From Sanguibacter suaedae (GTDB taxonomy: Bacteria > Actinomycetota > Actinomycetes > Actinomycetales > Cellulomonadaceae), in NCBI RefSeq assembly GCF_016342785.1, contig NZ_JAEINH010000003.1, positions 62,001-126,000 of the forward strand: a stretch of DNA of 64,000 nt, given 5' to 3'. Under the pieces are notes generated by a model. It worked only from the letters and a program-made list of their open reading frames with translations. It was not told the origin of the DNA and did no database searches. Both the position numbers and the translations under genes were made by a program. Below are positions 13,149 through 63,275 of the stretch, piece after piece; position 1 is the first letter of the stretch; every line of letters starts with the position of its first letter.

Positions 13149-13165
13149 CTCATATGGCAGCGCAC

Positions 13166-13219
13166 CACGCCACGCCACGCCACGCCACGCCACGCCACGC
13201 CACGCCACGCCACGCCACG
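13166..13219. repeat. CACGC pentanucleotide tandem repeat
   Basis: Ten perfect head-to-tail copies of CACGC from 13166 to 13215, then a partial CACG. It lies in the 348-nt gap between sodA and the convergent ctaF. The rest of that gap holds the two terminators and no supported gene. A unit of 5 in non-coding DNA is typical of a slippage-prone microsatellite; there are no spacers, so it is not a CRISPR array. Confidence 0.9.
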
Positions 13220-56441: not shown

Positions 56442-56469
56442 GCGGATGAGCTGGCCGGTACGCCGGGTT
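56442..56469. repeat. Left attachment site (28-bp repeat of rnpB 3' end)
   Basis: Identical over 28 bp to 62887-62914, beginning GCGGATGAGCTGGCC. The sequences on both sides differ, so the repeat is limited to the crossover core. It is not a second rnpB: the remaining ~360 nt are absent here. Confidence 0.9.
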
Positions 56470-56641
56470 TCGTCCGACGCGCTCTTGACCTATGTCTTTA
56501 CGCCGCAGGGGCTGGGTGGGAGCCGGGAGAATGATTCCGTCGACTGCGTCGCGCATCCGCTCGGTGCGCCAGCTTCGCAGCCTTCAGGAGAAGCAATCCG
56601 CAGAGGCAACTCGCGCGCAGAAGGCGGAGGCCGACAGGCAG

Positions 56642-57180
56642 GTGCGCGAGAGGAGACATGTACGCCAAGCTCGCCGTCTCCGTCGACCCCGCAGCGAAGT
56701 CGAGGAGCACGTCGGACATGACCGCTATCATCGTGACCGCCCTCGACAGGGAGGGCATCACGTGGATGCTCGACAACCGCACACTCAAGGGCACCCCATC
56801 GAATGGGGCACCGCAGTGTGGGCGGCCTCCTCGACTGAAACGCGGATGAGGTCATTATCGAGGACAACCAGGGCGGCGAGATGGTCCTCGAACTCCTCCG
56901 CTCCGCGTGGCGGCACATGCACCGCCAGCGTCCGCCCACGCGCCTTCCCCCGCGCGTCCGGTCCGTCACGGCGTCGCAATCTAAGCGGACCCGCGCGGAG
57001 TCCACCGTAGCCTTCTACGAGATCGGCGGCGTCCGCCACGTATCCGACGGCACGACCCGCCTCGATGCGCTCGAGACGCAGCAACTCACGTGGACGGGCT
57101 CGGGTGACTCCCCCGAGCGGACCGACGCCGCGGTGCGCGGCCTCACCGCATTCCTGCTAACCGAGCACTTCGAGGGGTCC
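56642..57180 (+). pseudogene. Phage terminase large subunit, C-terminal fragment, frameshifted
   Basis: The nuclease half of a TerL protein is read in three frames. Frame 1 gives AKLAVSVDPAAKSRSTSDMT, then DREGITWMLDNRTLKGTP. A lost base near 56808 leads to WGTAVWAASS, and a second near 56850 to DEVIIEDNQGGEMVLELLRS, then VTASQSKRTRAES and a final TWTGSGDSPERTDAAVRG. The Asp in VSVDPA and those in DNQGGEM are in the expected nuclease positions. The N-terminal ATPase half is missing, cut off near the left att site. Two independent single-base losses indicate decay. Confidence 0.75.
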
Positions 57181-57374
57181 GTCGCCGCGAAGCCGGCCGG
57201 GCAGGCATGCGCGGGCGCTGACCTACTCGGGAAGCGCGCCCTGACCTGCTTAGCCCGCTCAGGCGTCAGGTGGCATGGCGCCCGCTGGACGACCTGGAAG
57301 CCATTGGTGCGCAGCCACGCCCGGATGGTCTTCGAGCTCTTGTTGAGCTCCTTCGGGGTCGCTGTCGGATCCAC
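57015..57374 (-). pseudogene. Phage helix-turn-helix protein, likely truncated
   Basis: The first ~48 residues from GTG 57374 resemble small actinophage/Lsr2-type DNA-binding units: ATPKELNKSSKTIRAWLRTN, then LTPERAKQVRARF. After about 57235 the frame simply runs antisense through the terminase fragment and loses protein character. A deletion probably fused the two convergent genes. The intact DNA-binding part may still be expressed. Confidence 0.45.
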
Positions 57375-57432
57375 GTCCGGAGTCTAGGCGTGCCCGATGG
57401 AGCGGCGCCGGGCGGGCACGCGCGGCCGCTGA

Positions 57433-57618
57433 CTAGTTCTTGTTCGCGTCCCGGACCATCTTCGTGACCGCCGAGCGGTCCGGCGTCACTCCGCGCTTCT
57501 TGAGCTCCTTCATCGTGTCCGACACCTGCTGCGACTCAGACTTCGTGCGATCCAGCTCGACCGGCGCGAACATCCTCTTCGCGGCGGCGTCGTTCCACTT
57601 GATCTCAACCTTGCCCAC
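57433..57618 (-). CDS. Small phage-type protein, unknown function
   Basis: A 61-residue basic protein with VEIKWNDAAAKRMFAPVELD and a C-terminal KKRGVTPDRSAVTKMVRDANKN-like helix. The GTG at 57618 is chosen because AAGGAGG lies 7 nt upstream; the longer frame to 57684 is not supported. The 237-nt gap to the right (57619-57855) shows no gene. Confidence 0.5.
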   Translation of the reverse strand: MGKVEIKWNDAAAKRMFAPVELDRTKSESQQVSDTMKELKKRGVTPDRSAVTKMVRDANKN

Positions 57619-57855
57619 GGTGACTCCTCCTTGTCGAAACGGCCCGATATGACCATGGCTCACGGTAGTGCGGGCCACTGACACCCCGCGCAGACCATGA
57701 GCGAACCGTCCGACACCCCCGCGGTCACGCAGGTCGACTCCCGCTGACCGGCCGACTCCCTGCCGGAGTCAGCGCACTCCGCGACCAAGACGCGTGAGCG
57801 CGCGCGGCGAGGAGAAGAGGACCCGGCAGGGCGCAGATCCGGCTAGTATCCGCTC

Positions 57856-58479
57856 ATGGCATCAAGAGTGTGCTGGTCATGCGGGTCCTTCTCTCACCAC
57901 ACCACTGCTGCAGACCCTCGCGCGGCGGCCGAGCCAACGTTCTGGTGGGGGGCGTACCGATGCGATCACTGCGGCGTTTGGTCGGTCGCGCGCTGGGAGA
58001 ACAGCAAAGGCACGGCCAGCGGGAACGTAAAAACGTACATGGACGCCGCCACCAACCTTGAATGGCATCCTTCTAAGGTCGAAGGAAAGCAGTTCCCTGA
58101 CGTACCGGAGCACATCGCATCCGCGGCTGACGAGGCATACCGATGCTTCTCCATCTCCGCGCTTCGAGCGGCAATCCTCCTCGGCCGATCGGTTGTAGAG
58201 GCGACAGCCAAAGACAAGGGCATAGTCAAGGGGACGCTGGCAACGAAGATCAACGGCCTAGAAGCTGCTGGGCACATCCGGCCTCTCATTGCTGAGACCG
58301 CGCACGAGATCCGGTTTCTCGGCAACGATATGGCCCATGGTGACTTTATCGAGCCCGTTAGCGACGGTCAAGCTGCGGACGTTCTCGCCTTCATGGACGA
58401 GGTGCTGAACGAAGTCTATCAAGGTCCGGCGCGAGTAAACGCGCGTCGGGCAGCCCGAATCGCGCCGACAGCCGACTAA
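57856..58479 (+). CDS. Zinc-ribbon DUF4145 protein (cargo)
   Basis: A 207-residue protein. The N-terminus has a zinc ribbon, C6xxC9 and C36xxC39 (VCWSCG, RCDHCG). The C-terminal ~110 residues match the DUF4145 pattern: CFSISALRAAILLGRSVVEA, then LATKINGLEAAGHI and EIRFLGNDMAHGDF. DUF4145 domains often sit beside restriction-modification or other defence genes, but no biochemical role is fixed. Base composition is clearly lower in G+C than the host, indicating transfer. Its stop lies 1 nt from the IS481-type element, so the insertion left it intact. Confidence 0.75.
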   Translation: MASRVCWSCGSFSHHTTAADPRAAAEPTFWWGAYRCDHCGVWSVARWENSKGTASGNVKTYMDAATNLEWHPSKVEGKQFPDVPEHIASAADEAYRCFSISALRAAILLGRSVVEATAKDKGIVKGTLATKINGLEAAGHIRPLIAETAHEIRFLGNDMAHGDFIEPVSDGQAADVLAFMDEVLNEVYQGPARVNARRAARIAPTAD

Positions 58480-58480
58480 C

Positions 58481-59606
58481 TGTTGTGGGTCATGACGTTG
58501 GTGACGCACCGGAGGGGGTGGGGGCATAGGCGAGGGGTAGGTCCCGGTCGTGCAGGATGAAAGTACCTCTACAACCGCCTGCTCGAAGGACCTACCCCTC
58601 ATGACCCACGCTAATGCCCCGCCGACCCCTGCCGGAAGACTGCGATTGATGCGGCGCTGCGAGCATCGTCCGATTGCCCACGTAGCGGCCGAGGCCGGCG
58701 TCGCGCGTGCGACCGTGACGAAGTGGTTGCGCCGCTATAAGCGCCTTGGCGAGGCCGGACGGGTAGACCGGTCCAGCGCCCCGTTCTCGAGCCCGACCCA
58801 GACCTCGCCTGGGGTGGTGGAACGGATCGAGGACCTGCGCCGCACCCACAAGTGGACGGCCCGCCAGGTCCATCTCGAGCTGGTCCGTGAGGGCCACCAA
58901 ATTGCTCCGGTGGCGGCGGCTCGGTGGTTGCGTAGGTTGGAGATCGCCCAGCGGCGGGACACCGACCCCACCAGAGTGAGCAACCGGGTCGTCCGCCGGA
59001 TCGTGGCCCGGCATCCTAGTCAGATGGTTCATCTGGATGTGAAGAAGGTCGGGTGGATCCCTGACGGCGGTGGCTGGCGGGTTTACGGACGAGGTTCACC
59101 GCAGGCCAGGGCCGTCAACCGGGCCAAGGCCAAGGCCGCTAGGGCCGGATACGTCCACCTGCACTCCGCGGTCGACGGCTTCTCCCGCCTGGCCTACACC
59201 GAAGCGCTCCCCAACGAGACCGCCGCCACCACCACCACCATCGAATTCTGGGCCCGCGCACGGGCGTTCTTCGCCGCCCACGGCATCGCCCGCATCACCC
59301 GGGTCATGACTGACAACGGGTCGAACTACCGGGCCAAGGACTTCCACCAGGCGGCCTTGGCGACCGCGGCCAAGCACCAACGCATCCAGCCCCACCCCCA
59401 AGCACAACGGGAAAGTCGAACGCTACAACCACACCCTGGCCGAGGAACTTCTCTACGCCCGCGGATGGCCTCAGAAGCCCACCGCACCGCGGCAATCGAC
59501 GTCTGGAGCATCCACTACAACTACCATCGACCACACACTGCAGCCAGGAACCAACCCCCAGCCTCACGCCTCCGAGAAGGTGTCACCAACGTCATGACAC
59601 AGAACA
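58481..59606 (+). mobile_element. IS481-family insertion sequence
   Basis: 1126 bp with terminal inverted repeats at 58481-58505 and 59582-59606 (23 of 25 bases match; both start TGTT and share TCATGACGTTGGTGAC). One transposase gene fills it. Flanks read CTAAC on the left and GCTAG on the right, so no clean target duplication is seen. It is inserted exactly between the stop codons of two convergent cargo genes. Confidence 0.88.
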
Positions 59607-59611
59607 GCTAG
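58601..59611 (+). pseudogene. IS481-family transposase with two compensating frameshifts
   Basis: A DDE integrase-fold transposase with an N-terminal helix-turn-helix (IAHVAAEAGVARATVTKWLR) and catalytic acids D146 (MVHLDVKKVG) and D238 (VMTDNGSNYR). Between ~59393 and ~59465 the frame is wrong: the family stretch NGKVERYNHTLAEELLYARG is present but in another frame, including the third catalytic residue, Glu at 59418-59420. The original frame returns as EAHRTAAIDVWSIHYNYHRP. Losses of 2 and 1 bases explain this. The product keeps length but not the catalytic Glu, so it should be inactive. The stop codon lies just outside the right repeat. Confidence 0.85.
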
Positions 59612-60039
59612 TTCGTCCAAGCGGGCAGGTTCTTGTACCCACGCCGCGCTTGGATTACCGCCCCAACGATGAGCATCACGATTCCGATGACCGTGTAGGC
59701 GATTGCGAGCCAGAAAACGACTGACACGGACTCATTGGAGGTGTTCATCACCGCGAAAGCCGAGCCCCAAGCTGCTAGGGCGGCGAGAAGTGCCACGACA
59801 CCGGCACCCGTGTAGGGGGTGCGCCACCACACATTGCTGAGCTGGTGCGAAGTGAACTTGATGAACTGCTTCAGCTGTTTCTCTTCGTTGGTCGAAAGGC
59901 CGCCCGCAATAACTAGCGCTCGTGCTTCACGGATCGCTTCGACTCGGGCGAGACTTCGATCGCCGTGGAAGAGCGCCGAGAGGACTGCCACTAGCGCTAC
60001 GGCGACGGTTCCGATACTGATCCACTCTGCTGCTCCCAT
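59608..60039 (-). CDS. Three-helix membrane protein (cargo)
   Basis: A 143-residue protein. An N-terminal helix (~5-24) is followed by a cytoplasmic helical region (RVEAIREARALVIAGG, then NEEKQLKQFIKFTSHQL) and two helices (~76-96 and 104-128), ending in a basic tail. No family recognised. Lower G+C than the host. Its stop is 1 nt from the IS right end; before the insertion it was convergent with the DUF4145 gene and almost touching it, so the two may form a pair. Function unknown. Confidence 0.65.
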   Translation of the reverse strand: MGAAEWISIGTVAVALVAVLSALFHGDRSLARVEAIREARALVIAGGLSTNEEKQLKQFIKFTSHQLSNVWWRTPYTGAGVVALLAALAAWGSAFAVMNTSNESVSVVFWLAIAYTVIGIVMLIVGAVIQARRGYKNLPAWTN

Positions 60040-60126
60040 GACGTTAGTTGTACACCCACACTGACATACCCGAGGTCGGTCCTCACGAATCCCCCCTCAC
60101 GGACGATGGACTCAGGAGGCCCGCCC

Positions 60127-60448
60127 ATGACGCCCCCCTGATCCCGCACTCATCCGCGACGAGGTCACCAGCCCTGACGATGCAACGCTCGAGGAGTGGT
60201 TCGACGAGCTCGGGCACTGGCTGCCCGTGGCGATCCGCATCCTCTTGCGCCGGTACGCCGACGCGTCCGCCGGCGGGCCAGAGGTCTCGAACTTCGGGCT
60301 CGACGGCGTTCTCACGGTCGGCTTCTCGAAGGCGACTCTTGCGAGCCTCGCCGCGCAGATCGCCCGCCCCGAGGACCTCCTCAACCCGACCTCCACGTCC
60401 GGCCGGCTCCAGATCGCACCGATCCTGCGCCCGGACGGCTACTGGTGA
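60127..60448 (+). pseudogene. Small phage protein with a one-base insertion
   Basis: ATG 60127 has AGGAGG upstream, but the frame stops after four codons. Removing one C from the C6 run just after the start opens a ~106-residue frame to 60448, including LEEWFDELGHWLPVAIRILL, then LDGVLTVGFSKATLASLAAQ and ending LRPDGYW. Its stop overlaps the GTG of the next gene by 4 nt. It sits where small head genes or a portal end would be; identity unknown. Confidence 0.5.
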
Positions 60449-61456
60449 CCCAGCCCGACAGCATCGAAGCGCTCACCGCCCAGCTGCGGACTGAAGTGGC
60501 GGCCGTGTGGGCGTGGATCGTGCGCGAGCTGGACGAGCTCCTGCGTGAGTGGTGGGGCCTCGCCCCGGCGGTGCGCGTGAACCGCCTCACCGAGCTCGAG
60601 GCGGCCGTGTGCGCGCTCGGGGACCAGGGACACGCTCGCCGCCACGCAAGTCCTGACGGCCACGCAGGCGGCCTACGAGATCGGTGCGTTCACCGTCGCC
60701 ACGACCCTCGGCACGCCCACGGCCTTCGCTGCCATCGACACCAACGTGATCGCGGCACTCGCTAAGGACACGATGGCCGACATCCTCCTCGCGACCCGCG
60801 GCATGGACGAGTCTGCGAAGGCGTTCACCCGCACAATGGCCCCGGACTGGGTGTGCGCGAAGATCTACTCCGGCCTCACCGCGGGCAGGCCGGGGTGCGC
60901 CTGGCCGCCGAACTCCCGCCGAACTCCTACCGAACGGAATCACGGCCGTCACCTACGCGAACGGGCGCAAGATCGGCCTGTCGACGTACACGGACATGGT
61001 CGTGCGCACGAAGACGGTCATGGCGTACCAGGAGGGAGCGTTCAACCAGGCCGAGGCGCTCGGCGTGGAGTGGATGGAGATCTTCGACGGCGCCGCCTGC
61101 GAGTGGACGTCGCAAGACGACCTCCAAAAGGACAACGGCATGATCGTCACGCTCGCGAGTACCCGATCAGCTATCCAAACTGCCGACGCTCGTCGTCGCC
61201 CCGGATCGACATCTCGTCGGCGGCGGACGCGAAGGTCGCTCGAGCGACCACGACCGAGGCGCAGCACGCCGACCAGGAAGCCGCGGGCAGGCTCGTGCGG
61301 CCGCCTACGCCCGCCCACCCGACGCGTCTCCCTCGACTCCCAGGTGGCTCTACCCGCAGGCGCACGAACATCGACCTCCAGGCCTGGGTCGTCGGGTCCA
61401 AGGCCGCCGCTCGGAACGCGACCCTCACGCAGAAGCGAGTGCCACCGCCCGAGTGA
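60445..61456 (+). pseudogene. MuF-like phage minor head protein, multiply frameshifted
   Basis: From GTG 60445 the protein begins SIEALTAQLRTEVAAVWAWI. It then continues in other frames as TQVLTATQAAYEIGAFTVA with DTMADILLATRGMDESAKAF, next as NGRKIGLSTYTDMVVRTKTV, then EWMEIFDGAACEWTSQDD, and last YPISYPNCRRSSSPR. This matches the layout of actinophage minor head/MuF proteins, in which FDGxxCxWTxHDD and the C-terminal HPNCRRS segment are typical. At least four frame changes (near 60630, 60905, 60950 and 61160) show it is dead. Confidence 0.7.
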
Positions 61457-61466
61457 CCATCGCGGC

Positions 61467-61660
61467 ATGACGACCCACGCACCGCGACCACGCCGTTCAC
61501 GCTCACCACCACGTCTCCCGCCACCGCCGCGGTCACCTTCGGCGGCGTGAACGTGTCGGACGACGTCGTCGCGGTCGAGTTCACGCAGGCAGCCGGCGAC
61601 CAGGCGGCGCTCGTCCTGCATCTCAAGCCCAAGGTCACCATCACGGGGACGCGATCGTGA
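61467..61660 (+). pseudogene. Small phage protein, frameshifted
   Basis: An ATG at 61467 lies one base out of frame with a ~55-residue stretch, TPFTLTTTSPATAAVTFGGV and then VEFTQAAGDQAALVLHLKPK, ending at TGA 61658-61660. A single-base loss near 61480 would account for it. The stop overlaps the next GTG by 3 nt, typical of packed phage genes. Confidence 0.4.
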
Positions 61661-61827
61661 CCGTCGTCCGCGATCCCACCGACGACGAGTTTCGCGCCCG
61701 GCCCGGGGACTGGCAGGCCACCCTCGACCCCGTCGCGCTCGACGCCGAGGTCCGCCCACTCCTGACGAGCATGCGCGGCTCCTACGCCGCGCGCATCGAG
61801 GTCCTCGCGGAGAACGTCCGTGGTTGA
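61657..61827 (+). CDS. Small phage protein, unknown
   Basis: A 56-residue ORF, too short for most gene lists: VVRDPTDDEFRARPGDWQAT, then LTSMRGSYAARIEVLAENVR. The GTG start overlaps the previous stop and its stop overlaps the next GTG by 8 nt, a packed phage head-tail arrangement. Confidence 0.5.
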   Translation: MTVVRDPTDDEFRARPGDWQATLDPVALDAEVRPLLTSMRGSYAARIEVLAENVRG

Positions 61828-62272
61828 CCTCGGCCCCGTCCTCAACCTCGGCGGCACCCTCGCCGCATCCGCCGTCCGCACGTTCGGGACTGAGGTCACC
61901 CCGGCCGTCGAGATCTTCGGGGAGACCGACCCAGTCACGCTCGAGCGGCCCGTCGCCGTCCAGGCGCTCGGGAAGCAGCAGGGCATCATCATCAAGACCG
62001 GCGGCGCGACGGGCGAGCTCATCCCCGGCGTCCAAGTCCAGGTCACTGACTGGCGCGTAGTCCTCCTGCCGAACGTCCCCGACGTCGCGACCGTCTCGAC
62101 GAACCTGCCCCAGGCGCGCCGTCTCGAGTTCGGGTTCTTCGGCGAAGATTCCCTCGGCCGCAACTACCGCCAGCCCCCGTACCCGCACTGGCGCCCAGCC
62201 ATCGCCGGCGTCGCCGACGTGTTTGCGACCGAGCTCGACCGCGCCACGCGAGCCTCCCGGAGGACATCGTGA
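61820..62272 (+). CDS. Phage head-tail connector-like protein
   Basis: A 150-residue protein with FGETDPVTLERPVAVQALGK and VQVTDWRVVLLPNVPDVATV, a beta-rich pattern like phage head-closure/connector proteins. It is one of the few phage genes here without a frameshift. Assignment rests on position after the minor head gene and on composition; no diagnostic motif is present. GTG 61820. Confidence 0.5.
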   Translation: MVDLGPVLNLGGTLAASAVRTFGTEVTPAVEIFGETDPVTLERPVAVQALGKQQGIIIKTGGATGELIPGVQVQVTDWRVVLLPNVPDVATVSTNLPQARRLEFGFFGEDSLGRNYRQPPYPHWRPAIAGVADVFATELDRATRASRRTS

Positions 62273-62325
62273 GCCTGTACCGAACCGAGCCCATCCGCGA
62301 CGCCGCCGTCGTCGCCGCCGCGTAA
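62269..62325 (+). other. Possible 18-codon ORF, phage gene stump
   Basis: GTG 62269 has GGAGG 6 nt upstream and overlaps the previous stop, but reads only VSLYRTEPIRDAAVVAAA before TAA. It is probably the start of a tail gene cut short by deletion. Confidence 0.25.
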
Positions 62326-62393
62326 CCACCCCCTCGTCGTCGCCGCACCCCTTCGCTCGTGTGCGGGGACGACCCTCATGGAAGGACGCCGTC

Positions 62394-62834
62394 ATGGCAC
62401 TGCCGCAGAAGAACACCCGCATCATCCGCGTCCCGATCGTCCTCGACTCCGAGGTCGATCTGGAATGCCTCCAGGCGCAGCGCGCCGTCGACGTGCGCGC
62501 CGCAGAGCTGCTCAGCACTGCGGCCGACCGGATCCACATCGCCCGCGCCGCCGCGCCCTCTGAAACTGAGATCGACGCCGCGAACCGCATCGTCGACTGG
62601 GACAAGGCCGTCATCGCCGAACTCAAGGCCACCGCCGAGGAGAAGAAGGCCGCGCTCGAGGACGTGACCGCATGGTCCGCGGTCCGCGCCCTCGGCCGCA
62701 AGACGTGGGCCGACCTCGTCCGCCGCCACCCCGCGACGCTCGAGGACCAAAAGCAGTGGGAGGCCGACGGCGGGAAGGGCAAGGCGCCGTACAACGAGAT
62801 CGAGCTCGCCAAGGACCTCTTCCACCTCGCGTGA
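62394..62834 (+). CDS. Phage tail-assembly-type protein
   Basis: A 146-residue mostly helical protein (VDVRAAELLSTAADRIHIAR, then VRALGRKTWADLVRRHPATL and a C-terminal YNEIELAKDLF). This resembles actinophage tail-assembly chaperone-type proteins, which lie between the major tail protein and the tape measure. The frame is intact; AAGGA precedes ATG 62394; a longer frame from 62223 is not supported. Last gene before the right att site, 52 nt away. Confidence 0.5.
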   Translation: MALPQKNTRIIRVPIVLDSEVDLECLQAQRAVDVRAAELLSTAADRIHIARAAAPSETEIDAANRIVDWDKAVIAELKATAEEKKAALEDVTAWSAVRALGRKTWADLVRRHPATLEDQKQWEADGGKGKAPYNEIELAKDLFHLA

Positions 62835-62886
62835 ATCTCACCCCTGGAGACTCCCGAATGTTTCCACAGTTCAGAGAGCATAAAAG

Positions 62887-62914
62887 GCGGATGAGCTGGC
62901 CGGTACGCCGGGTT
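62887..62914. repeat. Right attachment site (inside rnpB 3' end)
   Basis: Identical to 56442-56469. It covers the 3' strand of helix P1 and the adjoining conserved AACCCGG segment of RNase P RNA. Unlike the left copy it is continuous with a full rnpB. Confidence 0.9.
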
Positions 62915-63275
62915 CTGTTCCCGCGCCCGGTTGCCCCGGCGCGGGCGACGACCATCCATCTACGACGTACGTCGCCGTACGCCTCCAGCGGCCTACCCGG
63001 ATGCTCGGGCGAGCAGCCCTCGGACGCATCCTGTCTGACCTTGCTCCAGGTGGGGTTTACCTAGCCACGCCAGTCACCTGGCGTGCTGGTGGTCTCTTAC
63101 ACCACCGTTTCACCCTTACCGGGTGCGCGAACGCCCCGGCGGTCTGTTCTCTGTGGCACTGTCCCGCGGGTCACCCCGGGTGGGCGTTACCCACCACCTC
63201 GCTCTGTGGAGCCCGGACGTTCCTCGGCGGGAGGCGGACCTCCCGACGCGGTCGTCTGGCCAACTCATCCGCACC
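62887..63275 (-). ncRNA. rnpB: RNase P RNA (type A)
   Basis: The ~390-nt catalytic RNA that removes tRNA 5' leaders. On the minus strand it opens with GCGGATGAGTTGGCC (63272-63258), which pairs with GGCCAGCTCATCCGC at the 3' end (62901-62887) to form helix P1. The universal GAGGAACGTCCGGGCTCC core follows near the 5' end, with AGGGTGAAA in the middle and ACAGAACCCGG near the 3' end. TAGTAC on the minus strand at 63287-63282 is a plausible -10 box and overlaps the stop codon of the upstream tautomerase gene. The prophage uses its 3' end as att site without damaging it. Confidence 0.95.

Follow-up and report, generated by a model that had tools for sequence, protein, structure and literature searches.

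The locus described here raises the question whether rnpB, the gene for the RNA of ribonuclease P (RNase P), can serve mobile elements as an attachment site in the manner of transfer RNA (tRNA) and transfer-messenger RNA (tmRNA) genes. It lies in a 64,000-nt stretch of the Sanguibacter suaedae genome (contig NZ_JAEINH010000003.1, positions 62,001 to 126,000 of the forward strand), which is referred to as the window and numbered from its first base. Tyrosine recombinases insert prophages and islands at the 3' ends of both tRNA and tmRNA genes, and these two kinds of gene are the basis of the rule that mobile elements enter structural RNA genes at the 3' end. The element studied (56442-62914) is bounded by two copies of the rnpB 3' end and is very probably the decayed remnant of a temperate phage that integrated at the 3' end of rnpB through site-specific recombination. 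Full-text searches of open-access literature gave no account of rnpB as a bacterial attachment site (attB) or of integration there.

The RNase P RNA gene was identified at 62888-63267 (minus strand) by a match to the class A model RF00010 (299.6 bits) that covers the full model (positions 1-367), and the RNA gene is accordingly whole after the insertion. Its last 28 nt form the rnpB-side attachment (att) core (62887-62914, minus strand), whereas the distal core (56442-56469, minus strand) is a second copy of the same 3' end. The two copies agree at 28/28 positions, have the same orientation and show a mismatch at the next base on either side, so that the exact duplication 6.4 kb away reported in an earlier note, which had been made from the letters of the window, was borne out. 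Plain shuffles of the window contained 0.3 duplicated 20-mers on average and 3 at most (20 shuffles). The remaining duplicated 28-mers printed for the real window all came from one perfect 5-nt tandem array (CCACG x 11, positions 13165-13219). When the 3.16-Mb genome was scanned with a 25-nt core at up to 3 mismatches, only these two places were found (0 for the reversed-pattern control), and the repeat thus does not occur at unrelated sites in its own genome. A matrix of rnpB 3' ends from which the window's own row had been omitted gave scores of 53.0 and 45.1 at the two cores, compared with 2.6 for the runner-up in the window. A chance repeat was rejected on the strength of the genome-wide scan, the shuffles and the matrix scores.

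Next to the distal core, the end of a tyrosine integrase gene was detected. In a tblastn search with the integrase of Sanguibacter inulinus, introduced below, residues 352-375 gave the best match in the window (56562-56491, minus strand, E 0.27), corresponding to a C-terminal stub of about 24 codons (56491-56562) whose C-terminus faces the distal core. A six-frame search of 690,189 bases (the window and 36 loci) for the motif MR[DVA]A.DG[ILV] gave 8 matches, a number in which the window stub is counted twice (one of the loci, L037, overlaps the window), and every match outside the window was located in an integrase C-terminus, either intact or broken. From the M codon of the motif to the core, the distance is 87 nt in the window, 90 nt in S. 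inulinus and 100-102 nt in the genomes G099, G138 and G149. By position and motif, the stub is predicted to belong to the lineage of rnpB-adjacent integrases. Apart from this stub, no intact tyrosine recombinase was found in the element, nor did the rest of the genome contain an integrase homologue at E<=1e-30. The earlier statement that there is no integrase therefore stands for an intact gene, but not for a gene that is wholly missing, since its last ~24 codons remain at 56491-56562. Similarly, of the two explanations offered for its absence, loss after integration is retained in the form of a probable deletion in place, whereas mobilisation in trans is not needed because the 3' stub is still present. 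On the evidence of the stub, in-place loss also replaced the idea of an integrase absent from the start. Because the window holds only a stub of the integrase, the element is classed as a remnant and not as a working phage.

The cores are flanked by arm-like stretches. In many relatives, GCAGGTCA is found on one side of the core and TGACCTGC on the other, both inside the element, and type-A relatives additionally carry a GCCCCCACACAGCCCCC-like stretch on the integrase side. The window holds degenerate forms of all three, namely AGGTCAAGAG (56482-56491, minus strand) for the arm-like site GCAGGTCA, GCTCCCACCCAGCCCC (56501-56523, minus strand) for the relatives' GCCCCCACACAGCCCCC stretch and CTGAACTG (62867-62874, minus strand) for the rnpB-side arm-like site CTGACCTGC. 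Flanks were scored against six type-A ends, derived from five elements and the contig L089 from IMG/VR, and the scores are raised by three core-adjacent bases common to most sites. The inner 60 nt at the distal core were matched or beaten by 2/2000 shuffles and 5/2000 random window segments, the 40 nt on the rnpB side by 0/2000 and 1/2000, respectively. The mean score of the rnpB side was 10.08; four congeners that lack a second copy scored 5.83-7.0, and the flank on the outer side of the distal core 8.0. All three stretches may represent arm sites of the integrase. An element-type CTGACCTGC site was also seen behind rnpB in another genome (G018, locus L030, position 5488), where the 20-kb stretch contained no second core even when 4 mismatches were allowed; this is perhaps an occupied site whose far copy has been lost or lies at a distance.

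The gene order rnpB, ppgK, map, nadE and glnA (names assigned from the sequences) is conserved in relatives, and ppgK is a usable anchor for comparing sites. In S. inulinus DSM 100099 (G001; loci L020 and L021; NZ_JACBYE010000009.1), rnpB is followed by phage-type genes as far as the end of its contig (L020). The second core copy lies on a different contig (L021), on the ppgK side, and 3 nt separate it from an intact tyrosine integrase (Phage_integrase, PF00589, E 6.8e-14). This prophage also encodes YqaJ, RecT and an amidase, with the YqaJ and RecT genes lying beyond the integrase. It resembles the window in genus group, site, core, integrase C-terminus and flanking motifs; it differs in that its integrase is intact, that it is split over two contigs and that none of the proteins within the 36.9 kb compared matches the window's element. 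In the congeners G002 and G005, the gap between rnpB and ppgK measures 0.84 kb and 0.61 kb, respectively, and contains one exact core each; G005 has one further match with 3 mismatches on another contig. Judged from their sequences, both look like empty sites, and relatives thus do offer, at the species level, an empty-site alternative to the occupied locus. In G003 and G004, the gaps are 8.0 and 5.9 kb, with one core and no clear arm-like site.

A search for integrases and phages next to the same core, as suggested in the earlier note, was successful in S. inulinus and in two cultured phages. Among phages, the closest integrases were those of the Arthrobacter phages Kukla (PQ362669.1) and TripleJ (NC_049470.1), which share about 45% identity with the S. 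inulinus enzyme. Directly behind the integrase gene and in the same orientation, both carry the 32-nt rnpB 3' end ACAGAACCCGGCGTATCGGTCAACCCATCCAC, which agrees with the rnpB ends of Arthrobacter and Pseudarthrobacter and is predicted to be the phage attachment site (attP). They share with the window's lineage the succession of a related tyrosine integrase and the rnpB 3' end, but are intact phages from another host family, whose feature tables have no att entry at this place. Beside the integrase gene of Dulem virus 32 (40% identical), no rnpB-end stretch was found. A pattern scan of IMG/VR yielded 8 stretches, four of which (L088, L089, L091 and L092) lack rnpB but have the core next to a related integrase. 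Of these, L089 combines the core with both arm-like sites and is a putative attP with both arms, L091 has the same att stretch as TripleJ, and L088 and L092 could be either attP or the distal copy. Among the others, L090 contains a full rnpB and L093-L095 the 3' part of rnpB up to the contig end.

The prevalence of core copies was determined in 221 genomes of the family. With up to 3 mismatches allowed, the core was found in 97/221 (own genome included), whereas the reversed-pattern control gave 0. Two or more matches were present in 13 genomes, and 12/221 (own included) were considered credible; G005 was not counted as such, its extra match having 3 mismatches and lying on a different contig. 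Same-strand pairs on one contig occur in 10/221 genomes (own included), 2.8-57.7 kb apart, and in G001 and G010 the copies are located on different contigs. In the stretches examined, intact or near-intact integrases of the family are present in G001, G063, G067, G075, G099, G138 and G149 and integrase stubs in G010, G135 and G160, and no integrase was detected in that of G019. In G135 (L071), three copies of the rnpB 3' end (at 2136, 3397 and 4924, one of them with 4 mismatches) were seen together with integrase fragments, probably marking two stacked, decayed elements. Stacked insertions are also probable in G010, where three core copies are found on three contigs (L026, L027 and L028), with an integrase fragment beside rnpB.

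To follow the integrase lineage across the Actinomycetota, the integrase was searched in the order (396 genomes, E<=1e-50), the class (394 genomes, E<=1e-35) and the family (220 genomes, E<=1e-30), giving 10 (11 matches), 30 and 31 positive genomes, respectively. These sets overlap; 69 distinct loci were scored, leaving aside matches without a retrieved locus, using a matrix of rnpB ends with 15 rows and a cut-off of 15 chosen by eye. A downstream rnpB end was found in 7/8 loci with E values below 1e-100 (query included), in 15/17 to 1e-60 and in 8/11 to 1e-50, falling to 3/9 to 1e-40 and 4/24 to 1e-30. At E values below about 1e-50, 30/36 Actinomycetota loci (query included) thus adjoin an rnpB 3' end, whereas 0/1380 shuffled loci reached the cut-off. 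An earlier version of the matrix, in which the window row was one base out of register, had been used for the tree labels and the list of upstream loci. On mending it, the top bin changed from 8/8 to 7/8, the fourth bin from 4/9 to 3/9, and the genome loci described below from 51 to 50 (downstream) and from 11 to 10 (upstream; again 11 if the window row is left out of the matrix), while the 18 viral loci remained unchanged. With the earlier version, 11/11 loci of the order search had a downstream rnpB end (the lowest, L098, at 18.6), and the highest of 20 shuffles reached >=15.0 in 5/69 loci. The survey of core pairs and that of integrases are not independent, because G001, G063, G067, G075, G099, G138 and G149 contribute to both.

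Among the best 80 of 361 relatives from genomes, 50 loci have an rnpB end up to 1.5 kb downstream, in 20 cases in the orientation of the integrase and in 30 in the opposite one, and 10-11 carry an rnpB-like end upstream instead. The upstream stretch, intended as a control, is not clean in view of these 10-11/80 loci. The list obtained with the earlier matrix (L210, L211, L217, L234, L181, L186, L190, L212, L216, L225 and L232) marks a third arrangement that is found partly in Mycobacteriaceae. Of the best 80 of at least 439 viral loci, among which many contigs are cut at the integrase end, 18 have an rnpB end; it was found in 0/14 viral loci whose integrase is less than 40% identical to the alignment and that extend at least 400 nt behind the gene. 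Hosts with a downstream match include Cellulomonas, Arthrobacter, Microbacterium, Mycobacterium, Nocardioides, Geodermatophilus and Blastococcus. In a tree built with fasttree, in which long branches meet and 34/160 loci are unlabelled, the sequence behind their integrase being too short, each orientation class was clustered (0/500 shuffles as low), a result favoured by near-copies, and the label 'none' hardly so (20/500 shuffles as low). Because the tree needs 21 changes, no single origin of the use of rnpB is claimed.

In the proposed course of events, the tyrosine integrase gene of a phage would have lain next to an attP in which the last ~28-31 nt of rnpB were copied. By recombination of this attP with the chromosomal rnpB 3' end, at a presumed crossover point, rnpB would have acquired a new 3' end from the phage copy, comprising the helix P1 3' strand and a portion of the conserved 3' region (the core presumably also holds one strand of helix P4), and the host's own copy would have been displaced to the far end of the element. 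Because the phage copy supplied the new 3' end, the essential RNase P RNA would have stayed whole and has presumably continued to function. Later, the integrase except for its last ~24 codons and most of the phage genome would have been lost, an IS481-type element would have been inserted and the leftover structural genes would have broken up. As in integration at tRNA and tmRNA genes, a structural RNA gene supplies the core with its 3' end and is restored by attP, a direct repeat is located at the far end and the integrase lies beside an att site; the difference is the target, rnpB, with a core made up of the P1 3' strand and part of the conserved 3' region. The proposal of the earlier note that rnpB is used like a tRNA or tmRNA gene has gained support from the occupied site in S. 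inulinus, the empty-looking sites of congeners and the two phages with a predicted attP.

The two copies of the ribozyme end were also compared in other hosts. In 14/14 named hosts, picked from 21 same-orientation genome loci, the integrase-side copy resembles the host's own rnpB end (28/28 identical in 9, 23-27/28 in 5; overall 23-28/28). In these hosts, a pairing of 9-14 bp with sequence close to the 5' end of rnpB (the P1 5' strand) was computed for either copy, in a lenient search that took the best run. In Pseudarthrobacter polychromogenes, about 47 kb of a single contig separate rnpB (122069-122460) from a partial match (169109-169187). In a metagenome-assembled genome of the Propionibacteriaceae (L331 and L185), the distal copy pairs entirely by Watson-Crick pairs and the P1 strand on the rnpB side includes a G-U pair, a single case that fits a phage-derived rnpB end and is suggestive only.

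Several points weigh against the interpretation as a phage remnant. The integrase stub scores poorly, with an E value of 0.27 in the tblastn search of the window and, for a profile made from 17 integrases, of 0.16 within the element, compared with 0.13 for an unrelated frame; in G075, stub and core are about 1.2 kb apart. The flank tests were run after the motifs had been spotted by eye. The earlier note had expected an empty site with rnpB joined to the K+ channel gene. This arrangement was not seen, as a search of the stretches examined in five congeners gave no homologue of the channel gene, and the exact flank before insertion was not recovered from them. (The channel gene was also considered as cargo, which would need a third core copy around it, and rejected, there being no third copy in the window.) Of 3 window proteins compared with 50,697 phage records, 2 had no match and 1 had weak partial matches; the parent phage was not found, and a scan of IMG/VR with one window protein returned no relative. 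Finally, the proteins of the element had no match at E 1e-4 in the 36.9 kb of S. inulinus sequence.

Identical cores and partly kept arm-like sites would also suit a remnant that has kept its mobility and whose core and arm-like sites could be acted on by the integrase that a related phage brings in; with the arm-like sites degenerate and the genome devoid of a related integrase, this appears unlikely. Even less credence is given to a phage satellite or mobilisable island that never possessed its own integrase and was integrated in trans. Such an origin would agree with an element of only 6.4 kb that contains no intact integrase, in a genome without an integrase homologue at E<=1e-30, but the C-terminal stub of the right integrase occupies precisely the position of the gene in relatives. 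An ordinary segmental duplication of the rnpB end, with unrelated phage-like genes in between, can practically be dismissed: short duplications do occur and the phage genes of the window do not match the S. inulinus prophage pieces, but the same end is duplicated in the same orientation in 10/221 family genomes with 2.8-57.7 kb in between, the integrase stub and arm-like sites lie at the element ends, phages carry a predicted attP and other sites are occupied together with intact integrases.

With the locus interpreted as a phage remnant, the balance tips slightly towards a wider conclusion, namely that, alongside tRNA and tmRNA genes, rnpB makes up a third class of dedicated attachment sites in structural RNAs, used by a widespread actinobacterial lineage of tyrosine integrases. 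Each integration would then swap the 3' end of the ribozyme, lysogens would run a host-phage hybrid RNase P RNA and phages would have to follow the P1 helix of their host. At the locus studied, the role known for tRNA and tmRNA genes would extend to the essential catalytic RNA of RNase P, with an integrase lineage that is present in many actinobacterial families and in two cultured phages. Because an rnpB site is present in every such host and is rebuilt on insertion, these integrases could become tools for chromosomal integration. The question whether the swap of the P1 3' strand alters RNase P, or limits the hosts that can be lysogenised, has thus been made testable.

The sequence between the repeats had been described as phage-like, decayed or of foreign composition. 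It is phage-like in part, as indicated by matches to PHROGs, although 6/10 proteins searched gave only a weak match or none. Foreign composition is only weakly supported, the G+C content of the element being 67.0% (62-71% in 1-kb windows), a modest difference from the 70-73% of the left flank. The broken phage structural region (60196-62834, plus strand) runs towards rnpB and comprises matches to phrog_37388 (function unknown; 60996-61547, E 2e-11) and, in fragmentary form, phrog_5 (neck/tail completion; 61820-62269, E 2.4e-4), as well as an unknown open reading frame (62394-62834). It is preceded by a small protein that weakly matches holins and membrane proteins (59608-60039, minus strand) and an IS481-type insertion sequence (58475-59612), whose 31-nt ends are 90% complementary and whose transposase is encoded at 58550-59611 (plus strand). 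By eye, this transposase seems to be out of frame briefly at 59390-59470, and the insertion sequence may be inactive. Closer to the distal core are an open reading frame of 83 aa without a family match (57433-57684, minus strand) and a gene for a DUF4145 protein (57856-58479, plus strand), which was matched by phrog_1305 (57856-58476, E 2.9e-22) and, in PADLOC, by PD-T7-4 (E 7.8e-7). In view of the latter match, this gene is a possible anti-phage cargo gene.

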